A stretch of 64,000 nt of DNA from the NCBI GenBank assembly GCA_032622095.1, contig CP136061.1, positions 26,528,273 through 26,592,272 of the forward strand, given 5' to 3'. Source of the stretch: Siphonodentalium dalli. Its lineage: Eukaryota > Mollusca > Scaphopoda > Gadilida > Siphonodentaliidae. Below, piece by piece: positions 1 to 64,000 of the stretch (positions are counted from its first letter, which is position 1; every line of letters starts with the position of its first letter). The notes under the pieces were generated by a model. That model had not been told where the DNA came from and searched no databases. It saw only the letters and a list, made by a program, of their open reading frames with translations. A program made the translations under genes and the position numbers.

Positions 1-167
1 CATAACTTGGCCTATCACACTTGCTGCAGACCGGTCTGTGGTATAATTAAATAATTTATGGTATGTCACATTTAAAGTCCCACCACAAAGCTGTGTGCTG
101 TTGTGTTTCATTGACATGTCGGTCTCACACGCCTTGCTGTGATAAGCTCGCAATCCGCATGTTTTAT
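1..167 (-). CDS. NXPE/PC-esterase-like gene copy 1, terminal exon (partial)
   Basis: The minus strand from 167 to 1 is open without a stop and encodes KTCGLRAY, then CGGTLNV and a Thr/Asn-rich stretch. It matches codon by codon the start of the copy 2 terminal exon at 47518-48059. The acceptor is a pyrimidine-rich tract ending CAG at 168-170. The exon starts in phase 1 (AT, then AAA ACA TGC), which fits the phase-1 donor of the GDS exon at 32093-32479; joining makes a GAT codon. In PC-esterase proteins the catalytic Ser lies in the GDS block and Asp/His in a C-terminal DxxH block; that block would fall to the left of base 1. The product is probably a secreted or Golgi carbohydrate O-acyl-modifying enzyme by family analogy; the substrate is unknown. 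Confidence 0.72.
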
Positions 168-171
168 CTGG

Positions 172-6100: not shown

Positions 6101-9100
6101 TCCCACAAGTAGAGGTATATACTCATTATGATCCCACAAGGAGAGGTATATACTCATTATGATCCCCCAAGGAGAGGTATATACTCATTATGATCCCCCA
6201 AGGAGAGGTATATACTCATTATGACCCCCAAGGAGAGGTATATACTCATTATGATCCCACAAGGAGAGGTATATACTCATTATGATCCCCCAAGTAGAGG
6301 TATATACTCATTATGATCCCCCAAGTAGAGGTATATACTCATTATGATCCCACAAGGAGAGGTATATACTCATTATGATCCCCCAAGGAGAGGTATATAC
6401 TCATTATGATCCCACAAGGAGAGGTATATACTCATTATGATCCCACAAGGAGAGGTATATACTCATTATGATCCCCCAAGTAGAGGTATATACTCATTAT
6501 GATCCCCCAAGGAGAGGTATATACTCATTATGATCCCCCAAGGAGAGGTATATACTCATTATGATCCCCAAAGGAGAGGTATATACTCACTATGATCCCC
6601 CAAGGAGAGGTATATACTCATTATGATCCCACAAGGAGAGGTATATACTCACTATGATCCCCAAAGGAGAGGTATATACTCATTATGATCCCCCAAGGAG
6701 AGGTAAATACTCATTATGATCCCCCAAGGAGAGGTGCATACTCATTATGATCCCACAAGGAGAGGTTTATACTCATTATGATCCCACAAGGAGAGGTATA
6801 TACTCATTATGATCCCCCAATAAGAACGGAGAGGTATATACTCATTATGATCCCCCAAGGAGAGGTATATACTCAGTATGATCCCCCAAGGAGAGGTATA
6901 TACTCATTATGATCCCACAAGGAGAGGTTTATACTCATTATGATCCCACAAGGAGAGGTATATACTCATTATGATCCCCCAAGGAGAGGTGTATACTCAT
7001 TATGATCCCCCAAGGAGAGGTATATACTCATTATGATCCCCCGAGGAGAGGTATATACTCATTATGATCCCCCAAGGAGAGGTATATACTCATTATGATC
7101 CCCCAAGGAGAGGTATATACTCATTATGATCCCCCAAGGAGAGGTATATACTCATTATGATCCCCCAAGGAGAGGTATATACTCATTATGATCCCCCAAG
7201 GAGAGGTATATACTCATTATGATCCCCCAAGGAGAGGTATATACTCATTATGATCCCCCAAGGAGAGGTATATACTCATTATGATCCCCCAATAAGAACG
7301 GAGAGGTATATACTCATTATTATCCCACAAGGAGAGGTATATACTCACTATGATCTCCCAAGGAGAGGTATATACTCATTATGATCCCACAAGGAGAGGT
7401 ATATACTCATTATGATCCCTCAAGGAGAGGTATATACTCATTATGATCCCCCAATAAGAACGGAGAGGTATATACTCATTATGATCCCCCAATGAGATGT
7501 ATATACTCATTATGATCCCCCAATGAGAGGTATATACTCATTGTGATCCCCCAAGGAGAGGTATATACTCATTATGATCCCCCAATGAGAGGTATATACT
7601 CATTATGATCCCACAAGGAGAGGTATATACTCATTATGATCCCACAAGGAGAGGTATATACTCATTATGATCCCCAATGAGAGGTATATACTCATTATGA
7701 TCCCCCAAGGAGAGGTATATACTCATTATGATCCCACAATGAGAGGTATATACTCATTGTGATCCCCCAAGGAGATGTATATACTCATTATGATCCCCCA
7801 ATGAGAGGTATATACTCATTGTGATCCCCAAGGAGATGTATATACTCATTATGATCCCCCAATGAGAGGTATATACTCATTGTGATCCCCCAAGGAGAGG
7901 TATATACTCATTATGATCCCCCAATAAGAACGGAGAGGTATATACTCATTATGATCCCCCAAGGAGATGTATATACTCATTATGATCCCCCAATGAGAGG
8001 TATATACTCATTGTGATCCCCCAAGGAGAGGTATATACTCATTATGATCCCCCAATGAGAGGTATATACTCATTATGATCCCACAAGGAGAGGTATATAC
8101 TCATTATGATCCCACAAGGAGAGGTATATACTCATTATGATCCCCAATGAGAGGTATATACTCATTATGATCCCCCAAGGAGAGGTATATACTCATTATG
8201 ATCCCACAATGAGAGGTATATACTCATTGTGATCCCCCAATGAGAGGTATATACTCATTGTGATCCCCCAAGGAGATGTATATACTCATTATGATCCCCC
8301 AATGAGAGGTATATACTCATTGTGATCCCCCAAGGAGATGTATATACTCATTATGATCCCCCAATGAGAGGTATATACTCATTATGATCCCCCAATGAGA
8401 GGTATATACTCATTGTGATCCCCCAAGGAGAGGTATATACTCATTATGATCCCCCAAGGAGAGGTATATACTCATTATGATCCCACAAGGAGAGGTATAT
8501 ACTCATTATGATCCCCCAATGAGAGGTATATACTCATTATGATCCCCCAATACGAACGGAGAGGTATATACTCATTATGATCCCCCAAGGAGAGGTATAT
8601 ACTCATTATGATCCCCCAAGGAGAGGTATATACTCATTATGATCCCCCAAGGAGAGGTATATACTCATTATGATCCCACAAGGAGAGGTATATACTCATT
8701 ATGATCCCCCAAGGAGAGGTATATACTCGTTATGATCCCACAAGGAGAGGTATATACTCATTATGATCCCCCAAGGAGAGGTATATACTCATTATGATCC
8801 CCCAGGGAGAGGTATATACTCATTATGATCCCCCAAGGAGAGGTATATACTCATTATGATCCACCAAGGAGAGGTATATACTCATTATGATCTCCCAAGG
8901 AGAGGTATATACTCATTATGATCCCCCAAGGAGAGCTATATACTCATTATGATCCCACAATAAGAACGGAGAGGTATATACTCATTATGATCCCCCAAGG
9001 AGAGGTGTATACTCATTATGATCCCACAAGGAGAGGTATATACTCATTATGATCCCCCAAGGAGAGGTATATACTCATTATGATCCCCCAAGGAGAGGTA

Positions 9101-9761
9101 TATACTCATTATGATCCCCCAAGGAGAGGTATATACTCATTATGATCCCCCAAGGAGAGGTATATACTCATTATGATCCCCCAAGGAGAGGTATATACTC
9201 ATTATGATCCCCCAAGGAGAGGTTTATACTCATTATGATCCCACAAGGAGAGGTATATACTCATTATGATCCCCAAGGAGAGGTATATACTCATTATGAA
9301 CCCACAAGGAGAGGTATATACTCATTATGATCCCCAGGGAGAGGTATATACTCATTAAGATCCCACAAGGAGAGGTATATACTCATTGTGATCCCCCAAG
9401 GAGAGGTATATACTCATTATGATCCCCCAAGAAGAGGTATATACTCATTACGATCCCCCAAGGAGAGGTATATACTCATTATGATCCCCCAATAAGAACG
9501 GAGAGGTATATACTCATTATGATCCCACAAGGAGAGGTATATACTCATTATGATCCCACAAGGAGAGGTATATACTCATTGTGATCCCCCAAGGAGAGGT
9601 ATATACTCATTGTGATCCCACAAGGAGAGGTATATACTCATTATGATCCCCCAAGGAGAGATATATACTCACTATGATCCCCCAATAAGAACGGAGAGGT
9701 ATATACTCATTATGATCCCCCAATAAGAACGGAGAGGTATATACTCATTATGATCCCCCAA
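172..9761. repeat. Giant intronic minisatellite, 31/38-bp units
   Basis: About 9.6 kb of head-to-tail units. The basic unit is 31 bp and contains GGAGAGGTATATACTCATTA followed by TGATC, a C run and AA. A second class is 38 bp because TAAGAAC is inserted before GGAGAGG. Frequent variants swap CCCCC/CCACA and AAGG/AATG. The long unit copies the intron sequence beside the acceptor at 171-192 (AATAAGAACGAAGAGG). On the transcribed minus strand every unit has a G run and a CCTCTCC tract. Short reading frames inside are artefacts of the repeat. Confidence 0.97.
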
Positions 9762-48061: not shown

Positions 48062-48205
48062 GTAAGAATAAGAAAGAAGAGGTATTTCCTCCGTTAAACT
48101 TTAGAATAAACGTGAAGGAAAACATACATACAGCGCGTAAAGTGTGTGCGATATGCAAAACACTAAACACAGAGGGACCCCAATAAGCCCACTGTGGATC
48201 ATAAG
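48062..48205 (-). other. Copy 2 intron block homologous to the copy 1 intron
   Basis: The acceptor-proximal intron aligns with 171-192 and then directly with 9762-9945. Only about 10-15 bases (TTTCCTCCG region) sit where copy 1 has the 9.6-kb array. Confidence 0.8.
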
Positions 48206-48531
48206 TATCGCAATCCTGATATTTTAACCCTGTATTATATTCTAATTTTCTTGTATTCTATTATAATTTTCAGATTAATTTTCGGACTTGATTTGAAATG
48301 TTATGGCGTTAGTATGGAGTATATTCAAAACTCTCTTTGTGTAACTTTGAACAAATATTTTCCATGACTTTAACTTTAAATTATTAACTGCATTCCATAT
48401 AAAACTCGAAATGGCCTCTCCATACTAACGCCATAACATTTCAAATCAAGTCCGAAAATTAATCTGAAAATTAGAATAGAATACAAGAAAATTAGAATAG
48501 AATACAGGGTTAAAATATCAGGATTGCGATA
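48206..48531. mobile_element. MITE with ~115-bp terminal inverted repeats
   Basis: The left arm 48206-48319 (TATCGCAATCCTGATATTTT ... GTTATGGCGTTAGTATGGAG) is the near-perfect inverse of the right arm 48417-48531, with a ~97-bp interior. One arm carries a small ~17-bp tandem change (ATTCTAATTTTCTTGT-type). It lies in the copy 2 intron and has no counterpart in copy 1. Confidence 0.88.
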
Positions 48532-48729
48532 CAATTATTAACGGTGGTTATTTCGTGGTGATCCACTATCAACTTGCATGGAGCGGATTAACAGGAATCA
48601 ACAGAAATCCTTGAGGCTCACCGAGACGTTGGCGCGAACCACTGAGAATCACCGCGAACCATTTTGAATCACCGCGATCCACTGAGAATCACCTCGAACC
48701 ACTGAAAGTCGCCGCTAAACACCGTCAAC
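48532..48729. repeat. Diverged ~20-bp repeats before the palindrome
   Basis: Phrases CCACTGAGAATCACC and CGCGAACCA recur several times between 48640 and 48715. The palindrome starts immediately after. Confidence 0.6.
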
Positions 48730-49516
48730 TGATGATACCCCGCCCGTTTGGTGTCAGTCTAGACAGGTTGACCTACATTCTCTGCAGTACATGGAGTTTG
48801 ACCTATATTCTCCGCCCACGCGTCGGTCTATGATCCCCATTAGCATATAATTATACGTAAGGGATATTTTTGGCCGGACATGTTCAAACACGTTCGCCGC
48901 CCACGCCTGCTCACGTCATATACTACGAGTCAATATCGATTTACTATCGACGATGTGCTTCTGTATAAATTATCTATTAATACGTGTCATGACACAGCCG
49001 CTTTCTGACGGCCAGTCGATTCGCTATAACACGTTCAGACTCGATCCCCCATCTATAAATATATAAACACGTACGGACATGTTTATTATATATAGCTTTT
49101 TTCGTCGACCCCCTCAGGTATATAAACGGTCGTTTCTTGATGTGATATCATAGATGGCTCAATGAAAATAGATACGACGAGGAACGTTTGATATAATGTG
49201 AGTATAAGTATATATTCTATACAAAATTGTTTTGAAATATATCTCTGTCTATGGTGGTACATTGATAAATTCGCAAATTTGCCAGGTAAACTTTATTTAT
49301 AATCCACGCCCTCATAAATTAATATATACGAAATGTTTTAGTGTTTGCCGTAAAATTTGCGAGTGTATGAACGCACCTCCCACGCACACAGTTATAAAAT
49401 GCGTAGATCAAATTATAGTGAATAAAATATATATGTTTACTATACCCTTTTTTACACAGAATGGAACGAAATCCGATAAAACATTAATCCGTTTATTATA
49501 GAAATTGTCAGGGGCG

Positions 49517-50146
49517 TTAATCCTTATTGTCCCCTTTCTTCTTCGGCGGCTCTACGTCATCGCTGTCCCACGTGCACGAAGTCATTGTCTTTTCCTCGTC
49601 GCTCAGCTCCCAATCGTCCCAATTGCTCATTTCGTCTTTTGGCTGGAAACAGAAGAAAAGACGTTCGGATTAAAAAAAAATTATTATACGGATACGAGTG
49701 ATTAACGAAGGTGTGTCAATGTTGGGTTATCAATATGGTTCCTTACTATTTTAGGGCCAGTAGTAAAAAATATAGGCTTTACATGAATATGTTATAAAAA
49801 TCTTGTTCCAAGCAACTCGTCTTTCGTTTAGCCCTCGGATATATTAAAAGCGTTATTAGTTACTGTTTTCCCGATATGAATAAAGAGCGTTTGGGGTTGT
49901 GTAATTAAAAACCAATAAAATCGCACCGCTGACAGAATACGAGTATACTATATAAATTGTTCGAATTCAAAAACAATACACAAAGAAATCCCCGGTTTCA
50001 ACGAGTATGAATATTTCTCAAACGAACGCTACTATTGCCTTTAACTAAATATCATGTTCAATTTAAAATGAAATAAAAGTTATATTTATACATACCATTT
50101 CCATCGTGGGTGTCTCGCCGTCACTAAATGCGTTAGGTGTTTCCAT
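49517..50146 (-). CDS. Small acidic two-exon protein, left-arm copy
   Basis: Mirror image of the gene at 54137-54766. Exon 1 is 50096-50146 (METPNAFSDGETPTMEM) and exon 2 is 49517-49642, with a GT-AG intron between them. The protein is 58 aa and identical to the right-arm copy as far as I checked. See the right-arm entry for details. I do not recognise the family. Confidence 0.6.
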
Positions 50147-51186
50147 GTCTGTAGTTTTGTGTCAAGTGAAGAATTTCACCTTATATTATACCCAGTAACG
50201 AATCATCGCCACTATGCTTGACCGAAATTCACGTTACAGTATAATTACACCAGATGTTTCAACGTTCTGCCCATTTCCGGTCATTGGAATTAGCCGATAC
50301 ACTCGCAGTCATTTTCATTCCGCGACACGTGCGCAGCGGTGTATTAACAGCGAGTACAGTTTGTAATGTAGTATAATTGGCTTATTAGCATACTGCCGGC
50401 CTGTCCTATAAAAGGTTAAATATCCGCCATGCTTAATTAAATAACGCATTAGTTGTGTGCGAACATAGTTGTCTACTTTTAAACAGATATAACACGGTTT
50501 TGAATATTGGCAGTCAAATTCCTACGTCGCCCTATTATAAAGAGGGTCCACGTTTCGGACCAATAAATTCACAATTTGGAGAATTTGTAATCTTTTTCGG
50601 CGATGTATCGTGTAAATGATAGTGATGGCCTACGGTACTCGTTCAGTTCTGAAATGAACTAAATTGTTTAAACAGTTCTTCGGGGTAATCTTTAAAATGA
50701 GTGTTCGCGAGTATATACATTATTTCCATGGGGGTAAAATAGAGGGATCCCACTAATTGGCAAAATAAATTAAAAAACTTAATATCTCGTCTTAACCGAC
50801 CACAAACGATAGTCCCCTTCTGTCTGAAAAATAATCTGAAAACGACTCGTCCGTACCTCTCTCCGCCTCGGAGATAGGCTATTTTGAAATATCTATGACG
50901 TCATTAAAGCCGCACGTGCAGTGGACATAATATGCCTTATCTAGAGTTCTAGAAGTCGGATCTTGACGCGGTTTTCACCATGTAGGAAGGTTCGACGTCG
51001 CCGTCAATAAAATAAATAAAAATAGAGATCTTTCGATAATTCACCAAAACATTTAAACATGAATAATCGTCGCACACACACACCCTCCCCCCAACGCGGG
51101 TATATGTCCGAAATAATTGAGAATAACATGGTATAAGTTAATATTTTATTTACGATGAAAATAAGTATTCCTCACACGGTCAAAGT

Positions 51187-51699
51187 TCAATAATCACGTT
51201 GAGTGTAAAATCCATAACCTCCGGGATTGCATTCTGTACACGCTAACGCTTCCATCTGTCCATCGTGCGTTAAATAACAAGCTTTCACATTCTCTAATTC
51301 AGGTAAAACATGATTAACGGCGTCAATGTGTTGAAACAATATATCAAATTCCTGTTGGTTAATCGTACAGCCTTTCTTCGTGGGGTGCAAATGTTCAGAG
51401 TCCTTCGGTGTGAAATACTGGCGTAAGTGTACTACACCATTATTATGGTCTAAAACCGCATGTAGATTGTGTCCCAGATGCACTTTATCCATAGGACTCC
51501 TGGATACTAAATGTTCGCCGATGGACTTTATATTTTCAGTCAGACATTGCCATCTTTGTAAGCTCATACGAGCCCCGAATGTCGTAGGGATTTTGCCTTC
51601 TTTCCATATTCGTAAGTCAACGTATTTCCGGTCCTCATATTCACCGACTGTGAGAAATCGGTCCCTCCCTAAATTTTTGACGAGAATCTTAGAATCCAT
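51187..51699 (-). CDS. Double PC4-like domain protein, left-arm copy
   Basis: Mirror image of 52584-53096, encoding the same 170-aa protein and transcribed away from the palindrome centre. Its TATA box mirrors to 51755-51763 and its AATAAA to ~51145-51150. The two copies face away from each other, ~0.9 kb apart around the centre. If both are active they would be divergently transcribed from a symmetric ~880-bp promoter region. Confidence 0.72.
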   Translation of the reverse strand: MDSKILVKNLGRDRFLTVGEYEDRKYVDLRIWKEGKIPTTFGARMSLQRWQCLTENIKSIGEHLVSRSPMDKVHLGHNLHAVLDHNNGVVHLRQYFTPKDSEHLHPTKKGCTINQQEFDILFQHIDAVNHVLPELENVKACYLTHDGQMEALACTECNPGGYGFYTQRDY

Positions 51700-52090
51700 G
51701 ATCCTTTCTTAATGAAAATTTAGCTGCGAATGAGCTAGTACCTCGAATCACCGTCTTTTTATATGATGGGTGACGTTGAAAAAATGAAATTGACCAATCG
51801 AGTAGCGCCTACGGCGGAGCCATTAATAATTAATGCCCGCCCCGTCTTCGTATGGGGCCGTCTTCGTATGGGGCCGACTTCGTTCCATGTTTTATCTTGT
51901 TTTTAATCAATAAATAATCAGATGTTTTATCATGTATATATTGACTGATTCTTCCGTGTTTTAACTTGTTTTTAATCAATAAATCTTCGGATGTTTTATC
52001 ATGTAAAACGTATATATTCATGTCATTATTTGAATTTGTTGATGTGTGTTAATTACTATGTTAGTATGTACGGTATATATATTCAGCCCT

Positions 52091-52192
52091 CATAATTGGC
52101 TACGGCAATCCCTAAGCCATTTGCTGAAGCAAGCTGGGCCACGATAAAGGGTTGCCGTAGCAGATTGCCGAAGCCAAACAATCTGAATTAAA
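52091..52192. other. Asymmetric centre of the palindrome
   Basis: About 100 bp between the arms do not pair symmetrically. Inside, GCTACGGCAA (52099-52108) pairs with TTGCCGTAGC (52152-52161), leaving a ~43-nt loop offset from the main axis. A second GATTGCCGAAGCC follows at 52163-52175, an alternative partner for GGCAATC. The centre could switch between two hairpin forms. Confidence 0.7.
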
Positions 52193-52484
52193 AGGGCTGT
52201 ATATATATACCGTACATACTAACATAGTAATTAACACACATCAACAAATTCAAATAATGACATGAATATATACGTTTTACATGATAAAACATCCGAAGAT
52301 TTATTGATTAAAAACAAGTTAAAACACGGAAGAATCAGTCAATATATACATGATAAAACATCTGATTATTTATTGATTAAAAACAAGATAAAACATGGAA
52401 CGAAGTCGGCCCCATACGAAGACGGCCCCATACGAAGACGGGGCGGGCATTAATTATTAATGGCTCCGCCGTAGGCGCTACTCG

Positions 52485-52528
52485 ATTGGTCAATTTCATT
52501 TTTTCAACGTCACCCATCATATAAAAAG
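52485..52528 (+). promoter_or_regulatory. CCAAT/TATA promoter of the right-arm PC4-like gene
   Basis: An inverted CCAAT box (GATTGGTCAA, ~52483-52492) lies ~35 bp before TATAAAAAG (52520-52528). The start codon at 52584 is ~56 bp past the TATA box, so the leader would be short. The mirror-image promoter is at ~51755-51800. Confidence 0.65.
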
Positions 52529-52583
52529 ACGGTGATTCGAGGTACTAGCTCATTCGCAGCTAAATTTTCATTAAGAAAGGATC

Positions 52584-53096
52584 ATGGATTCTAAGATTCT
52601 CGTCAAAAATTTAGGGAGGGACCGATTTCTCACAGTCGGTGAATATGAGGACCGGAAATACGTTGACTTACGAATATGGAAAGAAGGCAAAATCCCTACG
52701 ACATTCGGGGCTCGTATGAGCTTACAAAGATGGCAATGTCTGACTGAAAATATAAAGTCCATCGGCGAACATTTAGTATCCAGGAGTCCTATGGATAAAG
52801 TGCATCTGGGACACAATCTACATGCGGTTTTAGACCATAATAATGGTGTAGTACACTTACGCCAGTATTTCACACCGAAGGACTCTGAACATTTGCACCC
52901 CACGAAGAAAGGCTGTACGATTAACCAACAGGAATTTGATATATTGTTTCAACACATTGACGCCGTTAATCATGTTTTACCTGAATTAGAGAATGTGAAA
53001 GCTTGTTATTTAACGCACGATGGACAGATGGAAGCGTTAGCGTGTACAGAATGCAATCCCGGAGGTTATGGATTTTACACTCAACGTGATTATTGA
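52584..53096 (+). CDS. Double PC4-like (ssDNA-binding cofactor) protein
   Basis: 170 aa, no intron, TATA box upstream, AATAAA at 53133-53138, start context GATCATGG. Residues ~13-65 (RFLTVGEYEDRKYVDLRIW, then FGARMSLQRWQCLTENI) fit the PC4/SUB1 fold: a beta segment ending in VD(I/L)R, a basic/glycine link, then SL..WQ.L. Residues ~78-133 repeat it better: VVHLRQYF, PTKKGCTINQQEFDILFQHI. PC4 proteins normally have one such domain, bind single-stranded or melted DNA and modulate transcription or replication. The C-terminal ~35 residues hold CTEC and end GFYTQRDY. Two PC4 units in one chain would mimic the natural PC4 dimer. The assignment is by eye; the function here is inferred. Confidence 0.75.
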   Translation: MDSKILVKNLGRDRFLTVGEYEDRKYVDLRIWKEGKIPTTFGARMSLQRWQCLTENIKSIGEHLVSRSPMDKVHLGHNLHAVLDHNNGVVHLRQYFTPKDSEHLHPTKKGCTINQQEFDILFQHIDAVNHVLPELENVKACYLTHDGQMEALACTECNPGGYGFYTQRDY

Positions 53097-53132
53097 ACTT
53101 TGACCGTGTGAGGAATACTTATTTTCATCGTA

Positions 53133-53138
53133 AATAAA
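53133..53138 (+). terminator. Poly(A) signal of the PC4-like gene
   Basis: AATAAA 37 bp after the TGA stop. The mirror copy is in the left arm. Confidence 0.6.
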
Positions 53139-54092
53139 ATATTAACTTATACCATGTTATTCTCAATTATTTCGGACATATACCCGCGTTGGGGGGAGGG
53201 TGTGTGTGTGCGACGATTATTCATGTTTAAATGTTTTGGTGAATTATCGAAAGATCTCTATTTTTATTTATTTTATTGACGGCGACGTCGAACCTTCCTA
53301 CATGGTGAAAACCGCGTCAAGATCCGACTTCTAGAACTCTAGATAAGGCATATTATGTCCACTGCACGTGCGGCTTTAATGACGTCATAGATATTTCAAA
53401 ATAGCCTATCTCCGAGGCGGAGAGAGGTACGGACGAGTCGTTTTCAGATTATTTTTCAGACAGAAGGGGACTATCGTTTGTGGTCGGTTAAGACGAGATA
53501 TTAAGTTTTTTAATTTATTTTGCCAATTAGTGGGATCCCTCTATTTTACCCCCATGGAAATAATGTATATACTCGCGAACACTCATTTTAAAGATTACCC
53601 CGAAGAACTGTTTAAACAATTTAGTTCATTTCAGAACTGAACGAGTACCGTAGGCCATCACTATCATTTACACGATACATCGCCGAAAAAGATTACAAAT
53701 TCTCCAAATTGTGAATTTATTGGTCCGAAACGTGGACCCTCTTTATAATAGGGCGACGTAGGAATTTGACTGCCAATATTCAAAACCGTGTTATATCTGT
53801 TTAAAAGTAGACAACTATGTTCGCACACAACTAATGCGTTATTTAATTAAGCATGGCGGATATTTAACCTTTTATAGGACAGGCCGGCAGTATGCTAATA
53901 AGCCAATTATACTACATTACAAACTGTACTCGCTGTTAATACACCGCTGCGCACGTGTCGCGGAATGAAAATGACTGCGAGTGTATCGGCTAATTCCAAT
54001 GACCGGAAATGGGCAGAACGTTGAAACATCTGGTGTAATTATACTGTAACGTGAATTTCGGTCAAGCATAGTGGCGATGATTCGTTACTGGG
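53139..54092. other. Intergenic DNA between the two right-arm genes
   Basis: No coding sequence seen. A perfect CRE-type palindrome TGACGTCA lies at 53380-53387, mirrored in the left arm near 50896-50903. The intervening DNA is as well matched between arms as the genes. Confidence 0.5.
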
Positions 54093-54102
54093 TATAATAT
54101 AA
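54093..54102 (+). promoter_or_regulatory. TATA-like element of the small acidic gene
   Basis: TATAATATAA 35 bp before the ATG at 54137. This implies a very short leader, or a start site further down if another element is used. Confidence 0.4.
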
Positions 54103-54136
54103 GGTGAAATTCTTCACTTGACACAAAACTACAGAC

Positions 54137-54766
54137 ATGGAAACACCTAACGCATTTAGTGACGGCGAGACACCCACGATGGAAATGGTATGTATAAATA
54201 TAACTTTTATTTCATTTTAAATTGAACATGATATTTAGTTAAAGGCAATAGTAGCGTTCGTTTGAGAAATATTCATACTCGTTGAAACCGGGGATTTCTT
54301 TGTGTATTGTTTTTGAATTCGAACAATTTATATAGTATACTCGTATTCTGTCAGCGGTGCGATTTTATTGGTTTTTAATTACACAACCCCAAACGCTCTT
54401 TATTCATATCGGGAAAACAGTAACTAATAACGCTTTTAATATATCCGAGGGCTAAACGAAAGACGAGTTGCTTGGAACAAGATTTTTATAACATATTCAT
54501 GTAAAGCCTATATTTTTTACTACTGGCCCTAAAATAGTAAGGAACCATATTGATAACCCAACATTGACACACCTTCGTTAATCACTCGTATCCGTATAAT
54601 AATTTTTTTTTAATCCGAACGTCTTTTCTTCTGTTTCCAGCCAAAAGACGAAATGAGCAATTGGGACGATTGGGAGCTGAGCGACGAGGAAAAGACAATG
54701 ACTTCGTGCACGTGGGACAGCGATGACGTAGAGCCGCCGAAGAAGAAAGGGGACAATAAGGATTAA
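54137..54766 (+). CDS. Small acidic two-exon protein, right-arm copy
   Basis: Exon 1 is 54137-54187 (METPNAFSDGETPTMEM), followed by donor GTATGTATAA. The acceptor is TTTCTTCTGTTTCCAG, and exon 2 is 54641-54766, beginning PKDEMSNWDDWELSDEEK and ending PPKKKGDNKD before TAA. The product is 58 aa, rich in Asp/Glu, with three Trp and a basic tail. AATAAA follows at 54786-54791. Splice consensus, frame continuity and the nearby poly(A) signal support a real gene. I do not recognise the family. The acidic Trp/Asp pattern resembles activation or partner-binding tails, but that is speculation. It lies downstream of the PC4-like gene on the same strand. Confidence 0.62.
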
Positions 54767-55669
54767 CGCCCCTGACAATTTCTATAATAAACGGATTAAT
54801 GTTTTATCGGATTTCGTTCCATTCTGTGTAAAAAAGGGTATAGTAAACATATATATTTTATTCACTATAATTTGATCTACGCATTTTATAACTGTGTGCG
54901 TGGGGGGTGCGTTCATACACTCGCAAATTTTACGGCAAACACTAAAACATTTCGTATATATTAATTTATGAGGGCGTGGATTATAAATAAAGTTTACCTG
55001 GCAAATTTGCGAATTTATCAATGTACCACCATAGACAGAGATATATTTCAAAACAATTTTGTATAGAATATATACTTATACTCACATTATATCAAACGTT
55101 CCTCGTCGTATCTATTTTCATTGAGCCATCTATGATATCACATCAAGAAACGACCGTTTATATACCTGAGGGGGTCGACGAAAAAAGCTATATATAATAA
55201 ACATGTCCGTACGTGTTTATATATTTATAGATGGGGGATCGAGTCTGAACGTGTTATAGCGAATCGACTGGCCGTCAGAAAGCGGCTGTGTCATGACACG
55301 TATTAATAGATAATTTATACAGAAGCACATCGTCGATAGTAAATCGATATTGACTCGTAGTATATGACGTGAGCAGGCGTGGGCGGCGAACGTGTTTGAA
55401 CATGTCCGGCCAAAAATATCCCTTACGTATAATTATATGCTAATGGGGATCATAGACCGACGCGTGGGCGGAGAATATAGGTCAAACTCCATGTACTGCA
55501 GAGAATGTAGGTCAACCTGTCTAGACTGACACCAAACGGGCGGGGTATCATCATCTCTAAGAACAATAACTCTAAACGATAAATAGAGGTACGAAGGCGG
55601 CGAGTTTATAATACCACACCATATTCGCTCATCTTTTCGCTGGTATAAGGACGATAGTTCTTCCCATGA

Positions 55670-55978
55670 TTCGAGACAATACACGGGTGCCATTTGTGCA
55701 GAAATATATTATCGACGAACTACAATTTACAAAGGCATAAGAAAAGTAAAGACGGAGGTATGTCGGGAACACCATCGAATAACGATATATTCAGTCGATA
55801 CGAAGATACTGAGTATGATCTAGATTGCATTTCTTATATCAGGATCATTTTGGATCGTATAACACCGTGTAGATACGCTTTGTTAGCGCTTCACAAATTT
55901 CCCCGTTGTATAATGACACTATCAGATGCCTTTATGACCATAATTGAAACCCATCAGGGCTCATCGAGTGTCTTTTGA
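55670..55978 (+). CDS. Possible C2H2 zinc-finger exon just outside the palindrome
   Basis: An open frame from 55670 encodes GCHLCRNILSTNYNLQRHKK. This is a C2H2-type finger beginning (CxxC, 12 residues, then H) but without a clear second His; the following residues are KSKDGG. It continues into an acidic segment (SRYEDTEYDLD) and stops at 55978. The start codon is not obvious, so it may be an internal exon or a decayed gene. It begins ~120 bp outside the right arm and is absent from the left flank. Whether it belongs to the palindromic element is unknown. Confidence 0.35.
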   Translation, partial: FETIHGCHLCRNILSTNYNLQRHKKSKDGGMSGTPSNNDIFSRYEDTEYDLDCISYIRIILDRITPCRYALLALHKFPRCIMTLSDAFMTIIETHQGSSSVF

Positions 55979-55984
55979 TCAATT

Positions 55985-57075
55985 ATTATCACATTTCACC
56001 AGTTCCAACATGACATGTACAACTTCCCTATCAACAATGTTTTCTAAATTGCCAAAACTGAGTGCATTTATGATGTTGCTTCATATCTGAGGATACCATG
56101 GGGTGTAATTTCATTGATTGCTACCACGCATCAAGGGTCAAAATACAATACACATTTCTCCTGACCAAGGCCTCAGAAAGTGTCTTTTCATCTATTTTTA
56201 TCATATTTCATGAGTTCCAGCATGTAATGTTCACCTTCGCTAGCAATACTGTTCCCTAAAATTGCATATGGACTACATATGGACTGTGGATTGATCTCTA
56301 GGGACCCAATGGCTGTAATTAAATATATTTTAAAAACACATGGAGCTTAAGACATGAAATTTACAATTTTCCTGACCAAATTATGACCTACAATACACTA
56401 TGAGGTCCCTTTATGTTCATAACTCAGTCATAAGTACTCATGAAGTGTCTTTTTATCCATTTTATCACATTTCATGGGTTCCAACATGAAATGTTTACCT
56501 TCACCGCCGACATTGTGGCCTACAGTTGAAAACTTGAGAACATTTACGCTGTGTCTAGGCGACCGATGGGGTGTAATTACATTGATTGTTAAAACACATG
56601 TAGGATAAAATATGAAATTTACACTTTTCCTGACCAAATTATGGCTTACAATCTAGTATGAGATGCCGTTGTTGTCATAACTCAAAGTCATCAGAGCTCA
56701 GTAAGTGCCTTTTGATGCATGTTTATCACATTTGATGAGTTCCAACATGAAATATACACTTTCCCTGGCAAGAATGTTGCCTAAAATTGCAAAATTGAGT
56801 CAATTTATGCTCTAGGTTAATGTCTAGGACACCACTCCCATGTCCCTTAATTCATTTTTTACCATAGATGAAGGGTCAAATATGAAATACATATTTCTCC
56901 TGACCAAATTATGGGGTACATTGGCACTATGAGATGACTTTATGTTCATAACTCAAAGATATGAGGTCTCGTGAAGTGTCTTTACATCTATTTTTATCAT
57001 ATTTCATGAGTTCCAGGATGAAATATTCACCTTCACTAGCAATATTGTTGTCTAAAATTGCAAACGTTTTCTCAA
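55985..57075. repeat. Diverged ~265-bp tandem repeat
   Basis: About four to five copies share TTTATCAYATTTCATGAGTT, CCAACATGAAAT, CTCCTGACCAAATTATG, TTATGTTCATAACTCA and GGGTGTAATT phrases. Copies of GAGTTCCA-CATG lie near 55999, 56210, 56474, 56736 and 57008. Confidence 0.85.
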
Positions 57076-58480
57076 AATATGAGATATTGCGCGAACTGTT
57101 AGTGAGCTAATTGATTTTTGTGTCAAATTTGATCCAACATAGACGAAAACATTCAATAATTATGAAGGACTTACTCGAAAACTGAATTTTTATTGTTTTT
57201 TTTTTTATAAATGTGAGGGTTATTTTCACACTAGCTCTTGTATATTCGTTCTTATGTCATCGTTTTTGTTTCAAAGTATTTGTTTTTTGTTGATAATTGA
57301 CAACCCTGCATTATTTTGATCGAGAATGAAAAACAAAATATTGTATTTTTATGCATTGGTTCGTTATGGTCCTAATATGAAACATTTTAACTCAAATGCT
57401 ATATTATTTCGGTTAAATACAAGCTATGTTAACATTTTTCTAGGAAATATTCATTTCTGCATCATTATATTTGCGATGATGAACACATTCACACATTAGA
57501 CCGAATGGATTCGCACAAAGCCTTCCTTTATTATAAGACTTCGATAGAAATTATATACGTTTTCTCAAATTATAAGATTTTGGTCCAAATTTCATTTAAA
57601 TACTTGATTGTTGCTTCCAACTGTATTTCAAATAGACGAAATATTTCCATTTTATTTAAAAACAGACGAAATATTTACAATGCTTATCAAGTAATTACAT
57701 TGTTCTTCGATATTAGTTGTTAGATTATGGTTTTCTAACGTTTTATGAAGAGTAGTATTCAAAATTTTATATTCCTTTTTTTTTTCTGTCAGTGTAAAGA
57801 GGCAACATTCTGCATATGCATATCTTAAAGAGTGCTTATATACTTTAACATTAAAGTATACATCATAACCCACATATTTGAACACATAACATTCGTGCAT
57901 ATAATGGCATATTGATAAGACACACCGGACCACCATAGAGCTTATAGCGTATGTGGAACTGAATAGTTAACTATAGTAGAGGGCTTTTTTACTTGATTTA
58001 ACAGTGAAAAGGGCACTTAATGTACATCATAATATAACGCACTAATATGTATTGGATTTGCTTTAAGAAACACGGACGTATACATACATCAGATACGCAT
58101 ACTTAGAACACATTCACGTCGTGTATATACTGAAGTATACCACGTATATAGTCCACAAAGACATAGCCCTGCATGTGAAAACTCAGTTTAACTATACATT
58201 AAAGAGCGTTTATACGTGATTTACCTGTGAAAATGGAAATTTTTATACATCATATCACATAGAGGTACCGTACTTGCTTTAAGAATATGGACAGTTATAG
58301 GCACAATCATAACAACAATGGAGACCAGCGTTCTTACACAGAAATCAGTAATTTATGCACTAAAATGGTAACAACAATGAAAATATACACTCTGTGAACT
58401 GCCATAGACATCAGAACTATTAAGAATTTATGAGTTGTCTCGCTTGTTTAGTTGCGATACATGATGCAATAATTTGAGTT
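57076..58480. other. No gene seen
   Basis: Strongly AT-rich sequence. Short frames have no recognisable domain. Confidence 0.4.
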
Positions 58481-59700
58481 ACCAACAATAAAACAGTATT
58501 GACGCTATATATTATCCATATACCGACGGTTTTAGACTATATTTCTACTAATAATGCTATTAAATGAACGACAATTAAGATAAATGCACTATGAATGCAT
58601 ATATGAAGTCAATATGTATACACGCGTCCACATAGCAGGCCTTTTCCAGACCAATGTTTGATACCCCCGTATAAAATAGAGCGTTTTGAGAAGAATATGT
58701 GAAATTAATATGCACATGTGTTCACATAGTAGGTCTTATCGTCATATGAAACTTCCACGTAGTACATGCTTTGTTTCCTCTGTATAACAGACTAAATGTA
58801 TAGGATGTACAATACATATAATTGGTGAAAAGAATACATGAAGTATTTATGCATTAGTCTACACCATATGGGCTCTTTATTGTCTCCATGTAATGGAGAT
58901 TTTAGACTAAATTTCTTCTAATAATGCTATAAATGAACGATAATAAAGAGAAATGAACGATTAAAGAATACATCAAGTAAATATGTATACACGCATCCAC
59001 ATAGTAGGTCTTTTCCAGACCAATGTTTTGATGCCTCTGTATTAACAGAGAGCTTGGAGTATATATGAATGAACGGTAAGGAATATGTGAAATTAATATA
59101 GACATGTGTTCGCATAGTAGCCCTATCGGGGGCATGTTTCCTTAAATGGTAGCAATAATGAAAATTTACACTGTGTATTACAAACCACTCAAGGCTTCAG
59201 AAATATTACTAATTTTTGTGTTGTGATCAGTTGTCTCGCTTGTTTAGCTGCGATACATGATTCAATAATTTCATTTACCGCCAATAAAGCAGTATTGACT
59301 GGTATTGACGCATTATTTTCTCAATATAACGGCGAGTTTAGATTCCTACTAATAATGCTATAAATTAACGACAATAAAGAGAAATCGAAGATTAAAGAGT
59401 ACATCGAATAAATGTGTATACACGCGTTCCGCTCGTATGCCTTTTCCAGACCAATGGTTGATAACCCCCTACATAATAGAGCGTTTTGATAAGAACACGT
59501 GTCCACATAGTAGGCCTTTCGTGACATGAGACTGTCACTTGGTACAGACTGTCACTTGGTACATGCTTTGTTTCCTCTGTATAACAGCCTATCTTGATGG
59601 GAGTTATAATACATATAATTGATGAAAATAATGCATGAAGTAAGTATTTATACACTAGTCTACATAATATGGGCTCTTTAGTTTCTCCATTTAATGGAGA
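58481..59700. repeat. Diverged ~370-430-bp tandem repeat
   Basis: About three copies share TTTTCCAGACCAATG (near 58648, 59016 and 59448), TTTAGACTA with ACTAATAATGCTAT, CACATAGTAGGYCTT and GCTTTGTTTCCTCTGTATAA. The short frames here are by-products. Confidence 0.75.
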
Positions 59701-61768
59701 TTTTAGAGTAATAATATGAATGAACTATGACTAGAATACATCGAAGAACCAGACACCAATGCCATACTCCTACCATCCATGGAGCAATTAATATACATGA
59801 TATAAGACATAAAATACAACAGACAGTATCGTGTGCAACCGCTAAGGTATCATATGAATGAACCGTCATACACAATGATGTTACAACCAAAACTGCCTTA
59901 TGGACGAAATACTGGAACTGATTATACATTTGATACACGACATGTAATTCCACTCTATACATGGTCAGTTAGATATCTTGCGAAAGTGACGTGCACCTTT
60001 AAGGTATGTGACCAAAATGTGTTGTATTGTATTTTATATATATGACCATTTCTGCAGTAAATAACGCCACATCATTACTAGTGGGACTATGTGTGAAGCT
60101 CTTTGAATTAAATGAGCTTACTATGGTGGACATGTTTAACCAGATACGTTCTTCAAATAATGTTGGGATTTAAATTGAAGCTTAATTAGCCCTTCAAGCT
60201 TTCCAAATCAAGGTTATGGCGTGAAACAACCTGGAGAGAAAGATTTTATTTAGTTACTAATGTGGGTTCAAATAGAAACACATGGCGAAGGCCATGATTC
60301 GAGCCTGTATGGCGCTTCATAGCCCATTAAAGGCGCGCCGATGGGTGTGGTTAACTTTAATATGTCATGTGTAGGCCAGAAGCCACGAGGAACCCATTGC
60401 TGTCCATGTCTGTACCCCATATATACTGCTATATGCAGTCGACCTACCTAGGACCTCAGTTTCTCCTTTCCTGTGTGGCTATTCCAAACCCTAGTGAAAT
60501 GCGTTTGAAAATATACAGAGCGTTATTAAGAAGGATCGCTGATGCGTATAATATAACCAATATTTAGTCAACATTTTAAGAAAACCCATTATTGAAACAT
60601 TGCGTTTGATAGTGTAGGGATTTGACCATATAATGGTTATCAGTGAAGTGATGACATGTGCACTAAATGACCTCAGTCAGTAAAGGCTAGTTCAGACCAT
60701 ATGAGAACCACACTCACCACCCATGCCTATATCCAAACAAACACCATGGCGACAGCGAAACACTACGAAGCTTCTCCCCACACGGACACTGTTGTCTTCC
60801 ATGGATAATTTCTGATCCCATGTTGAGACCAAATTTCAGCCAAAGGGATCCCGTGGTTTCTGAGAAAATTATATTACAATGATGTACGGATGACGGACGA
60901 AGAGTGATTGGTTTTAGTTTCCACACAGATGTGTACCAACACGTTTTGAGACTGATATAGATGAAGTGTCCCTTTTATTATTGTTACGATGTGAAGTTGG
61001 CTAGTTCATACCCGTAATATCAGTTTCACTGGCCAGTGTCACTTAGAAACAATATTACGGATCATTGTCACATACAAAGGTCTTCAAAGGGAAGTCTATA
61101 ATATGAGTAATATTTTCGCGGGCTTTTAAAGTTGTATATATATATATATATAATAGGTGTGGCTTCACATTAGCAAAGATGTCCCAATGAACATGCACAC
61201 CGTGAAAGGAGGAAATATTAATAATCAAGGCTGTATTCTCAATACAGGGGGAGGGGGTAATTTAATTTGTTACAGTCAATGGAGCGATTATTAATGAATA
61301 AATTACGGAAAACAAGATGTGAAGAGGCCTATATGACATCTGTAGAGCGTGCTACCTATATGACATCTGTAGAGCGTGCTAACGGATTTAGTCATAGAAA
61401 GAGTAATATCCAAGATGGATGCTTCGTTCAAATTCTATAGAGCCCATCTGGAGGTGCTGCTACTAAACAAGGAATTTTTTCAAAAACTTGGAGATGAAAG
61501 TGGATATTCGAAGATTATGAGGGATTAGAAGTTGTAAGAAAAAGAAGAGCGAATAAAAACAGGAAGTGGTAGATAAAAAAGAGGGATAAAAAAAAAGATA
61601 ACAAAGAAAAATTATGAATAAATAGAGGATATCCACCCTTTTTCAGTGGATATGGGTTATATCTCATGAGTGATGACAAAACATTGAATTTCCACGATAT
61701 GATCAAATAATAAGCATGTGATACAACGCTTAGCCGATGGTTGTGGAGTCAGCCGGTAGGTTTCACGA
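59701..61768. other. No gene supported
   Basis: Mixed AT-rich DNA. It contains a (TA)n run at ~61133-61153. Two adjacent 28-bp copies of CTATATGACATCTGTAGAGC lie at ~61329-61380. An A-rich purine stretch occurs at 61530-61620. Confidence 0.45.
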
Positions 61769-61893
61769 GGGATTGCGTCAGATTCCAATGACTCAGGCGT
61801 TGCGCCGGAAGTAGGGATTGCGCCAGATTCGAATGACTCAGGCATTGCGCCAGAAGTAGGGATTGCGTCAGATTCGAATGACAGACATTGCAG
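61769..61893. repeat. 45-bp tandem repeat, three copies
   Basis: Units begin GGGATTGCGYCAGATTC at 61769, 61814 and 61859 and contain AATGACTCAGGC. The unit length is a multiple of three, so a short minus-strand frame repeats a 15-residue peptide, but there is no sign of a gene. Confidence 0.85.
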
Positions 61894-62029
61894 GAGGCAG
61901 AGTTTCTTATGGGCTGGATCTTATTCTATGGTTTAGGAGACGTGTGTAGACCACTCAATATCCCCTCAGGTGTAGTGTGGAACCCTCAGAAGTGGCAGTG
62001 GGTTAGATATATTAAAAGACCGTTAATTT

Positions 62030-62310
62030 TAAATTATTTTTGAATTTTAGAAAAAGTTGAAGTTTTTTAAGTTTTTCATATTTTTTTAATTTATGATTTT
62101 TTTTTAAAGTTTTTCATTTTTGTTTCTTTTTGAAAAGTTTTTTAAGTTTTTTGAAATTTTTGAGTATTTTGAAGTTTTTAAACTTTTTGAAATTTTGTAA
62201 GTTTTTGAAATTTTTGAACTTTTTGAAATTTTTGAAGTTTTTGAAATTTTTGAACTTTTTGAACTTTTTGAACTTTTTGAACTTTTTGAACTTTTTGAAC
62301 TTTTTATAAG
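62030..62310. repeat. Low-complexity TTTTTGAAC/TTTTTGAAA region
   Basis: Repeats of ~10-11 bp of the form ACTTTTTGAA and AGTTTTTGAA. A Lys/Phe-rich minus-strand frame is a by-product. Confidence 0.9.
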
Positions 62311-62559
62311 TTTTCAATGCGAGTGTCACTTTAACATTATCCCACAGTGTGCGCCATGTGTTACTTTAACATTCATCCATAGTGAGTGTCACTTTAATAA
62401 TCATCCCCAGTGAGAGCCTAGTGTCCCTTTAATATTCAAGACTGAAGCTACCCCACCGAGATCATCACGTGATATACATGTAGATAATATACCATTCATA
62501 TGGAGAAATCTGGATATAACCAGCGGGTCATGTCCGGACATGTCCAACCGGTACAAATA

Positions 62560-62660
62560 GACCGACGCGTGGGCGGAGAATATAGGTCAAACACCATGTA
62601 CTGCAGAGAATGTAGGTCAACCTGTCTAGACTGCCACCAACTGGGGGCGTTATCATCAGT
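62560..62660 (+). repeat. Diverged solo copy of the palindrome arm terminus
   Basis: GACCGACGCGTGGGCGGAGA, ATATAGGTCAAAC, ATGTACTGCAGAGAATGTAG and GTCAACCTGTCTAGACTG match the outer end of the right arm (~55457-55531) in the same orientation, with a few substitutions. It continues to TATCATCAGT, as does the left arm (ACTGATGATA at 48728-48737). The right arm instead turns to TATCATCATCTC. This implies a wider repeat family whose end lies near ACTGATGATA. Confidence 0.75.
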
Positions 62661-63191
62661 CAACTACTTACAATAGTTTAAGACTTTTCGATTTATGTCA
62701 TAACAGTATTAACTGAATATTGATCATTGTCTTGTTTCTTGACCCCTCTGGCTTTCAAACGTTTAATGGCCGCGATAATGACAATGTGTGCAACTTGTAG
62801 ACCTATGAGATGCTAGTCCGTTGCATATATGTATAAAAGCTCCACGGTGATTACCGCGTGTCGCGTCGATTTATGATCGTATATAGTTAGGTTTGGATAA
62901 ACCTGCAATCACCATGTTAATTACACCATAGCGCATCATTAGTCATCGCCGCTCAATCTTTCGGTATGAATCACCCTCTCAAAATAATCCCACGGTATCG
63001 AATATGTTGCTTATCGCAGACTCTGTATATATTGCATTATAATTAATGAACAGACGTAGATAATTATTCTTGCAACAATTAGAGGCGGACAGGCAGAAAC
63101 ACATAGAAACACCTGGTGACAGATGGACAGGCAGGCATGCAGGCATCGATGTTGGACAATGCGATTAGCATTACGTACATATTATAAAGTT
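62661..63191. other. No feature seen
   Basis: Non-coding DNA. Short repeats of CAGGCAGG/CAGGCATG occur at 63088-63146. Confidence 0.4.
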
Positions 63192-63353
63192 ATTATACAA
63201 TGTTGTGTACAGTATGTGTTTTTCTTGTACGAGTCCAGGTTGTGGTGAAAAGTCATATTGGACGAGACACGCCAGTGTCGAGTCCAATGTGACTTTTCAC
63301 CACAACCTGGACGAGTACAAGAAAAACTCATACTGTACACAACATTGTATAAT
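63192..63353. mobile_element. 162-bp fold-back element
   Basis: Near-perfect palindrome with 81-bp arms centred at 63272/63273 (ATTATACAATGTTGTGTACA pairs with TGTACACAACATTGTATAAT). Only a few mismatches were seen and the terminal loop is GCCA. Pieces of the arm recur at 63597-63675 as GAGTCCAATATGACT phrases, two of them preceded by ATCGG/GTCGG. It is non-coding. Confidence 0.85.
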
Positions 63354-64000
63354 GACATTTTTATTATCCATCTGTATGTTTATCCAAATTTTGGAAATAA
63401 AACTTTTGTGGTTATTTTTGGTATTTGTCGGCACTTAATTCTCTATAAAGCCTGTACCGTATATTGATCATCAGAAAGCATGATTTGGAAAAGTAAACAC
63501 GGAAGTGAGAAAAAAACTCAATAAAATCCATCAATGTTGTGCGCGCATCACAATTTCACCGATTCAGTTTGCAATAGAGTTAATTCGTGACGTCACGGAA
63601 TCCAATATGAAAAGTCATATTGTACAGTCGGGAGTCCAATATGACTATCGGGAGTCCAATATGACTTTTTCCAGGACTATCACGCGACGGCTTTTGCCCA
63701 ATCGGAAATGGTGTTAGTTAAGGGATGGATAATAATACATGATAATATGCATATATGTGGATCAAGTAGGATCCCTTGGTTGCGATCGAAGGATTATCTA
63801 AATATTTTTGTTCGAATAATCTATTTCTGGATTTCCCATACAATCATTATGTTATCTTTATGCAATAGTTCATTAGAACCCCGTATTGGTGTATTGGTGT
63901 TCGATATATGAGATACTTCATTCTTATATACGATTCGCTGTGCATTTTATATTTGACATTCAATTACATAATGTTATGCGTCCTCTACTTCAACACTGGC
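63354..64000. other. Window end, no gene supported
   Basis: Contains the GAGTCCAATATGACT repeats (63597-63675), including a small AATATGAAAAGTCATATT fold-back. Several 60-77-codon frames have no recognisable content. Confidence 0.4.

Follow-up and report, generated by a model that had tools for sequence, protein, structure and literature searches.

A gene-bearing palindrome in Siphonodentalium dalli, very probably an integrated copy-back genome of Polinton/Maverick type joined to half of a second palindrome

The stretch of DNA analysed here (the window) comprises 64,000 nucleotides of contig CP136061.1 (C1:26528273-26592272) from the scaphopod mollusc Siphonodentalium dalli, in assembly GCA_032622095.1 of 2.23 Gb and 9 contigs, which are cited below as C1, C3 and so on. 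A sequence-only reading of the window had claimed a gene-bearing palindrome at 48730-55553. This palindrome was found to be real: positions 48730-52097 were matched in inverse orientation by positions 52186-55553, giving two arms of 3,368 nt separated by a spacer of 88 nt. The arms were approximately 99.9% identical and differed at four pairs of positions (49378/54905, 52083/52200, 52091/52192 and 52092/52191), so that the two differences named in that reading (49378/54905 and one near 52082) are both genuine. An inverted repeat of 3.4 kb and 99.9% identity cannot have originated by chance. Only one of the four mismatches lay away from the base of the loop; its variant at 49378 was private to the left arm, and a full-length copy of the underlying element at C9:38.22 Mb agreed with the right arm. 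As had also been claimed, each arm carried the same two outward-facing genes, one for a PC4-domain protein and one for a small acidic protein. The features of the palindrome are the following, where L denotes the left end of the element and MITE a miniature inverted-repeat transposable element.

48730-52097, plus strand: left arm of the palindrome, from the inverted-repeat comparison.
52186-55553, minus strand: right arm, from the same comparison, read as a back-copy of the left arm.
52098-52185, no strand: spacer of 88 nt, from the same comparison, read as the fold-back loop.
48730-51843, plus strand: L piece of an approximately 14.2-kb Maverick-type element in arm 1; similarity ends at arm position 3114 in the aligned copies.
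51844-52204, plus strand: captured DNA, probably of host origin, with a MITE-like hairpin (CAGCCCT...AGGGCTG) at its end, from a donor match; parts of it are dispersed in the genome.
51187-51699, minus strand: gene for the 170-aa PC4-domain protein in arm 1 (PF02229, frame open).
52584-53096, plus strand: gene for the 170-aa PC4-domain protein in arm 2 (PF02229, frame open).
54137-54766, plus strand: gene for the acidic protein of 58 aa in arm 2, with exons at 54137-54187 and 54641-54766 and splice sites predicted from the sequence.
49517-50146, minus strand: gene for the acidic protein in arm 1, with exons at 50096-50146 and 49517-49642, mirrored from arm 2.

The PC4 domain (PF02229) of the 170-aa arm protein was recovered in Pfam with an E value of 4.3e-13 and 49 bits, compared to a cut-off of 25 bits. 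The protein could possibly act in the binding of single-stranded DNA during strand displacement. The 58-aa acidic protein had no match in Pfam; no arm mismatch fell inside its gene, and its copies on the two arms are therefore identical.

The palindrome was found to be one part of a larger inserted unit, bounded by terminal inverted repeats (TIRs) and a target-site duplication (TSD). The remainder of the unit appears to belong to a second palindromic element, here called X, with a terminus of the type found at right ends (R).

48730-62658, no strand: whole inserted unit of 13,929 bp, with TIRs at both ends, a TSD and an empty site.
48724-48729, no strand: left TSD, GTCAAC, the same as 62659-62664 and found once at the empty site (C1:29.71 Mb).
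62659-62664, no strand: right TSD, GTCAAC, the same as 48724-48729.
48730-48831, plus strand: left TIR, starting TGATGATA, as do the aligned left ends of other copies.
62557-62658, minus strand: right TIR; 6 of 45 nt of its tip differ from the left tip.
55452-55553, minus strand: third, internal terminus, an L-type TIR ending TATCATCA, mirror of 48730-48831 and carrying the left-end tip.
55554-55555, no strand: filler of 2 nt (TC) at the junction; matches to X begin at 55556, and the X centre that was read has other bases here.
55556-62658, plus strand: apparent single arm of X, bounded by the edge of the central spacer on one side and an R-type terminus on the other, from repeat matches.
62027-62318, plus strand: minisatellite, common to the R ends of three of the four full-length copies compared (L012, L014 and L016).
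55670-55978, plus strand: open frame of 102 codons in X with a zinc-finger-like stretch, a weak match (zf-C2H2_4, E 0.058) under the Pfam cut-off.

The left flank of the unit recurred at C1:29.71 Mb (100% of 250 nt), where it was joined directly to the sequence of window positions 62659-63154 (99.6%), which identifies this place as an empty site. Because the left flank leads directly into position 62659 at the empty site, and because a TIR and GTCAAC lie at both outer ends, the inserted unit was delimited as 48730-62658. The extent of 48730-55553 given in the sequence-only reading thus holds for the palindrome itself but is too narrow for the insertion, and the right edge of the palindrome at 55553 is an internal junction rather than a host flank. 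Insertion of the palindrome on its own was considered and rejected, as no TSD fits its ends (GTCAAC vs TCTCTA) and the flank at the empty site continues at 62659. Both flanks are present without the insert at C1:29713261-29714000, which is 3.1 Mb away and 99.6-100% identical, and this copy may have arisen by recent duplication, or it may be a second haplotype that was misplaced.

The two outer TIRs (48728-48831 and 62557-62660) were 93% complementary. Over 45 nt, the left tip was shared with the full-length copy at C9:38.22 Mb and the right one with a copy of X at C1:30.38 Mb. The two outer tips of the window unit differed from each other at 6 of 45 nt, compared to identical tips in 14 of 15 other elements.

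Arm positions 1-3114 recurred throughout the genome, with near-full-length matches at 94-100% identity and fragments down to 89%, and were found to form the L end of elements of approximately 14.2 kb with TIRs of approximately 102 bp. Of the 26 L-R pairs, 25 had matches that spanned 12.9-14.5 kb from L to R and one had a span of 22.0 kb; the shortest values are underestimates, since the outermost L fragments of those pairs were excluded. When the full-length copy at C9:38.22 Mb was compared with Pfam, DNA_pol_B_2 was recognised in two frames (E 6.8e-9 and 1.1e-12) and an rve integrase at L012:3000-4091 (E 5.8e-11, 43 bits vs a cut-off of 32.6), together with a chromodomain match below the cut-off. 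A P-loop frame (AGATKSGKT) running from the end of L011 into L012 was seen by its motif and is a candidate for the FtsK/HerA-like packaging ATPase. The full-length element also codes for two transcription-type DNA-binding proteins, one TBP-like (L012:4066-4602, TBP, E 8e-15) and the other the PC4-domain protein. No adenovirus-type protease was recognised in 9 frames by Pfam or by eye, with no search aimed at a protease, and no polymerase B was found in the window unit. A 426-aa capsid candidate and a 142-aa frame gave no Pfam match (E 0.1), and sequence searches of the PDB gave no match either, at E 0.1 or, for the capsid candidate, at E 1. Six-peptide searches of viral contigs confirmed no relatives of either the capsid candidate or the PC4 protein.

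A polymerase, an integrase, TIRs and 6-bp TSDs are given as marks of Polinton/Maverick elements in two papers (PMC4028283 and PMC8097293). Because its polymerase, integrase, TIRs and 6-bp TSDs match these marks, the element of the arms was assigned to the Polinton/Maverick type, with which it shares a DNA polymerase B, a retrovirus-type integrase, a P-loop frame, TIRs, a 6-bp TSD and a reiterated end motif. In contrast to that family, the window unit is non-autonomous and palindromic. The sequence-only reading had known no named element with this gene pair; the arm is now identified as the left end of a Polinton/Maverick-type element, but for the PC4 gene we know of no precedent in that family, and a literature search tied neither the PC4-like nor the TBP-like gene of the full-length relative to Polinton/Maverick.

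The innermost part of the arms preserves the point at which the strand was switched. The arms extended 254 nt past the Maverick piece, into DNA matching a donor at C9:144.446 Mb (L030), the alignment with window positions 51879-52209 having no mismatches and 3 gap openings. Of the four arm mismatches, three corresponded to imperfect bases of the donor's own hairpin, each arm retaining its side of the hairpin. The strand switch was located within 52200-52204, beyond which the right arm departs from the donor and tracks the left arm. The hairpin mismatches and the position of the switch thus indicate that a 3' end folded back and copied its own strand. The hairpin is in our reading a MITE, and the captured DNA is probably host-derived. 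Six other palindrome centres were compared with a full-length copy. Those at C3:293.38 and C6:118.37 Mb were mapped fully, and each junction showed 7 nt of inverted homology; random junctions reach at least 7 nt with a probability of 0.0005 each, and at least 2 nt with a probability of 0.16. Imperfect inverted similarity at the base of the loop was seen by eye at C3:70.58 and C1:25.83 Mb. Where they could be mapped, most fold-back points showed inverted microhomology or a pre-existing imperfect hairpin.

A search of the arm against this genome, as had been proposed together with the palindrome, gave L-R, L-L and R-R copies with TSDs. The tally of end pairs, drawn from 41 of 62 L rows and 40 of 63 R rows (second fragments and short pieces excluded) with the best 40 candidates scored per search and copies of X kept outside, contained 26 L-R, 5 R-R and 2 L-L pairs and 15 unpaired ends. 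These counts are lower bounds, and most pairs are known from their end matches, the interiors of few having been read. The L-L pairs were the window and a form of 16,301 bp at C3:70.58 Mb, the arms of which were 99.78% alike across the 7.2 kb compared. A further R-R place, outside the tally, was found at C7:20.59 Mb. Of 15 other elements for which both ends were read (those of C6_16M by eye), 14 had a 6-bp TSD, as did the outer ends of the window unit; 11 of these 15 were same-end or X forms, and 10 of the 11 had the TSD, the exception being C3:293.38 Mb. Since 10 of the 11 carry a TSD, same-end molecules were inserted as linear units. Shared target sequences were also noted: the elements at C3:112.39 and C3:70.58 Mb share flank sequence, those at C1:246.84 and C3:112.39 Mb share the TSD ATGCGA, and it looks as if all three had been inserted into copies of one palindromic target repeat.

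The alignment-defined ends started with TGATGATA, which contains a reiterated TGATGA motif; one left end (C6_16M) was clipped by the alignment and read separately, and ends found later were located by the TGATGA string itself and carry no independent weight for the motif. Reiterated end motifs are tied to jumping-back in protein-primed replication in PMC8097293, where the motif of vertebrate Mavericks is (AG)3 or (AGT)2, compared to (TGA)2 here. The two ends of a single copy were nearly always the same: in ten same-end elements there were 0 mismatches in nine and 1 in the tenth, over 88-251 nt. Between copies, the ends of four X copies and one deleted X copy differed at 8-46 of the first 80 nt (an ungapped count, inflated by shifts), and the same four X copies matched the window at approximately 100% (rounded) in the inner 1.5 kb. 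Such TIRs, alike within a copy and varied between copies, look as if one end were rewritten from the other at each passage.

To judge by its repeats, exactly one arm of X appears to be present in the window. Positions 55556-57100 were repeated in the genome at 98-100% identity in 75 matches (best 40 candidates scored, all 75 rows used for pairing), 70 of which formed 35 inverted pairs, leaving 5 singles that include the window. A search for the pattern of the X centre found 70 places in the genome and 0 control matches. The four X copies that were read at both ends had TIR termini, a TSD in all four cases and lengths of 14,226-14,366 bp. X was called R-type because the window arm contains the minisatellite of the R ends; in the fourth full-length copy (L018) the match of the R end was limited to the last 102 nt. 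Window positions 57380-62560 were 100% identical to a place at C7:50.86 Mb. That place was at one stage taken for an independent fold-back, a reading that was dropped, and it is better read as an X with a deleted centre (TSD CCGGTC).

With high probability, the palindrome represents a Polinton/Maverick-type genome made defective by copy-back (snap-back) synthesis, which was joined to half of X and integrated together with it as one unit. Both palindrome ends coincide with the alignment-defined terminus of the element. A copy made within the chromosome would continue into the left flank, whereas the palindrome stops at the terminus, and this argues for a fold-back that was extrachromosomal. Two features of copy-back molecules are present, namely two same termini in inverted order and short inverted homology at the loop, the latter as the donor hairpin in the window and as the 7 nt at C3:293.38 and C6:118.37 Mb.

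The unit could have formed in four steps. A linear replication intermediate with the L terminus would have lost its right part and carried approximately 360 nt of captured DNA with the MITE-like hairpin; this structure is seen in the window, and its order and timing were presumably as given here. The 3' end would then have folded on the 7-bp inverted repeat of the hairpin, primed its own synthesis and copied the strand to the L terminus, with run-off exactly at the TIR. The loop is visible at the nucleotide level, and the copying would have been the work of a polymerase. The product would be an L-L palindrome, each end of which has a terminus and hence presumably an origin of replication. One of these L-L ends would next have been joined, with the 2-nt filler, to an X palindrome half that had broken at its centre; the junction is observed, and end-joining would account for it. 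Finally, the 13.9-kb product, with L and R termini outside, would have been inserted with the 6-bp TSD, which is present, the enzyme probably being the element's integrase acting in trans. The same copy-back process may have yielded the other L-L and R-R forms, and X would have multiplied as a palindrome. As the window unit would consist of two joined molecules, a difference between its outer tips is expected, and these unlike tips suggest that the two were joined and then inserted without a further round that equalised the ends.

Several observations weigh against this interpretation. It includes three inferred parts, namely protein priming, linear DNA outside the chromosome and the polarity of the strands. 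At the joint at arm position 3114, window positions 51842-51883 were only approximately 90% identical to the donor, which is approximately 200 nt longer there. Four of the six other centres were not fully mapped to the full-length copy used: all but the innermost part could be placed for C3:70.58 Mb and a single side for C3:112.39 Mb, and neither C1:25.83 nor C6:8.2 Mb could be placed. The middle 601 nt at C3:112.39 Mb were non-palindromic, and a single side was among the matches listed for the inner R query (best 40 of 506 candidates), which together suggest short arms and a long loop. The junction overlap of the R-R form at C7:20.59 Mb was approximately 2 nt, which is within chance (0.16). 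The R-R form at C3:293.38 Mb (293380151-293387907) had no TSD. Its reading as a window-like composite with a second terminus further to the right gained no support from a search for the terminus string followed by AACTTT, which found 64 places (33 forward and 31 reverse, with 7 and 16 in the controls), none of them on C3 past 220.4 Mb. A full-length L-R copy at C6:16.58-16.59 Mb (L017 and L018, TSD CCTGGT) had two unlike tips, the sole such case of 15. X itself was seen only as 1.5 kb outward from the centre in the matches listed, the ends of four copies and one deleted copy. Further in from the tip, the right TIR of the window and that of the X copy at C1:30.38 Mb were only 90-93% identical, with gaps. 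By eye, the right neighbour of C3:293380151-293387907 resembles a piece of a LINE (long interspersed nuclear element) reverse transcriptase.

The composite could also have come about if a linear L-L palindrome had been inserted into a resident X, the left arm of which was later lost through recombination of like TIRs. In its favour, the sequence to the right is X, starting at the edge of the central spacer, and the two outer TIRs share approximately 93% identity; however, no TSD flanks the L-L part, the bases at 55554-55555 are unlike the X centre that was read, and the outer left tip is the L-L tip, which would confine the exchange to the outermost approximately 8 bases, so that we regard this course of events as unlikely. 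Two opposite-facing Mavericks inserted side by side, with their right ends removed by recombination or deletion, are conceivable in a genome with many copies of the element. Such an origin is distinctly improbable, given that the likeness of the arms continues at equal identity for 254 nt past the L piece, captured DNA and hairpin included, that a single hairpin and strand switch lie at the centre, that there is no TSD at 55553, and that the left TSD pairs with 62659 and not with 55554; separate repeats of these events would moreover be needed for the other same-end forms with their own TSDs.

The three origins that the sequence-only reading had offered fared differently. An assembly fold-back, in which one arm was read twice through a chimeric read or a mis-joined graph, deserves consideration because all sequences came from one assembly and long palindromes are generally troublesome for assemblers. 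It is nevertheless very unlikely: the flanks differ, each side of the palindrome halts at the terminus of the element, the outer GTCAAC duplication matches, an empty site was found, one arm difference is far from the loop while three fit the donor hairpin, and same-end forms recur with their own flanks and TSDs, X having 70 centres. A palindromic amplicon homogenised by gene conversion, in the manner of sex chromosomes, would agree with nearly identical arms and intact genes. Its probability is minimal, because the arms are bounded by the TIRs of a mobile element whose near-identical L-end copies lie on other contigs; conversion is also not needed, as just one of the four arm differences lies outside the base of the loop, and that single later substitution can be explained without it. 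Of the three, the head-to-head dimer of a hairpin-ended element came closest in proposing a dimeric linear element; the joint between the arms, however, lies at their inner ends, and the terminus of the element itself is found at both outer ends.

Defective adenovirus DNA can arise as a snap-back inverted duplication of one end. The copy-back palindromes described here resemble the symmetric left-end defective DNAs of adenovirus in the linear protein-primed type of genome, in the left end being kept in deletions and, for the generally known inverted form, in the snap-back duplication. Incomplete adenovirus particles contain left-end DNA (Daniell 1976, as given in a citing text). Unlike those DNAs, the forms in S. 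dalli are chromosomal with TSDs, are both left-left and right-right, and include one family with 70 centres. Foldback-type transposons and MITEs are, from general knowledge, likewise inverted-repeat mobile DNA without enzymes of their own; on the same basis they differ from the present forms, the arms of which are whole Maverick ends with genes (3.4 and 8 kb in the two L-L forms) and which have the parent's 6-bp TSD. Among the papers on Polintons and palindromes that were listed, none was recognised by title or abstract opening as dealing with palindromic Polintons, which does not imply absence from print. Protein-primed replication of Mavericks as extrachromosomal linear DNA is expected and, to our knowledge, has never been watched directly. 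Palindromes that end at a terminus and have fold-back loops and TSDs would be the genomic footprints of linear molecules that had run off their ends before integration, and replication errors, end-joining and integration may thus be readable from finished genomes.

It also seems reasonably likely that palindromic copy-back Mavericks are self-perpetuating parasites of the parent element, in effect heritable defective-interfering genomes, which by virtue of two identical termini replicate in trans, integrate with TSDs and recombine extrachromosomally, with the X lineage multiplied and each passage rewriting one TIR from the other. If this is true, a palindromic lineage with 70 centres would show that a defective genome can turn into a successful mobile element and that a large eukaryotic genome can retain long palindromes that are nearly perfect.

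Other repeats were found in the window. A small separate inverted repeat lies just left of the insertion (48205-48319 and 48418-48532, 115 nt, 98% identity, gap of 98 nt), and another lies to its right (63181-63270 and 63275-63364, arms of 90 nt, gap of 4 nt). A satellite array with a 31-bp unit in approximately 301 copies occupies window positions 186-9761.

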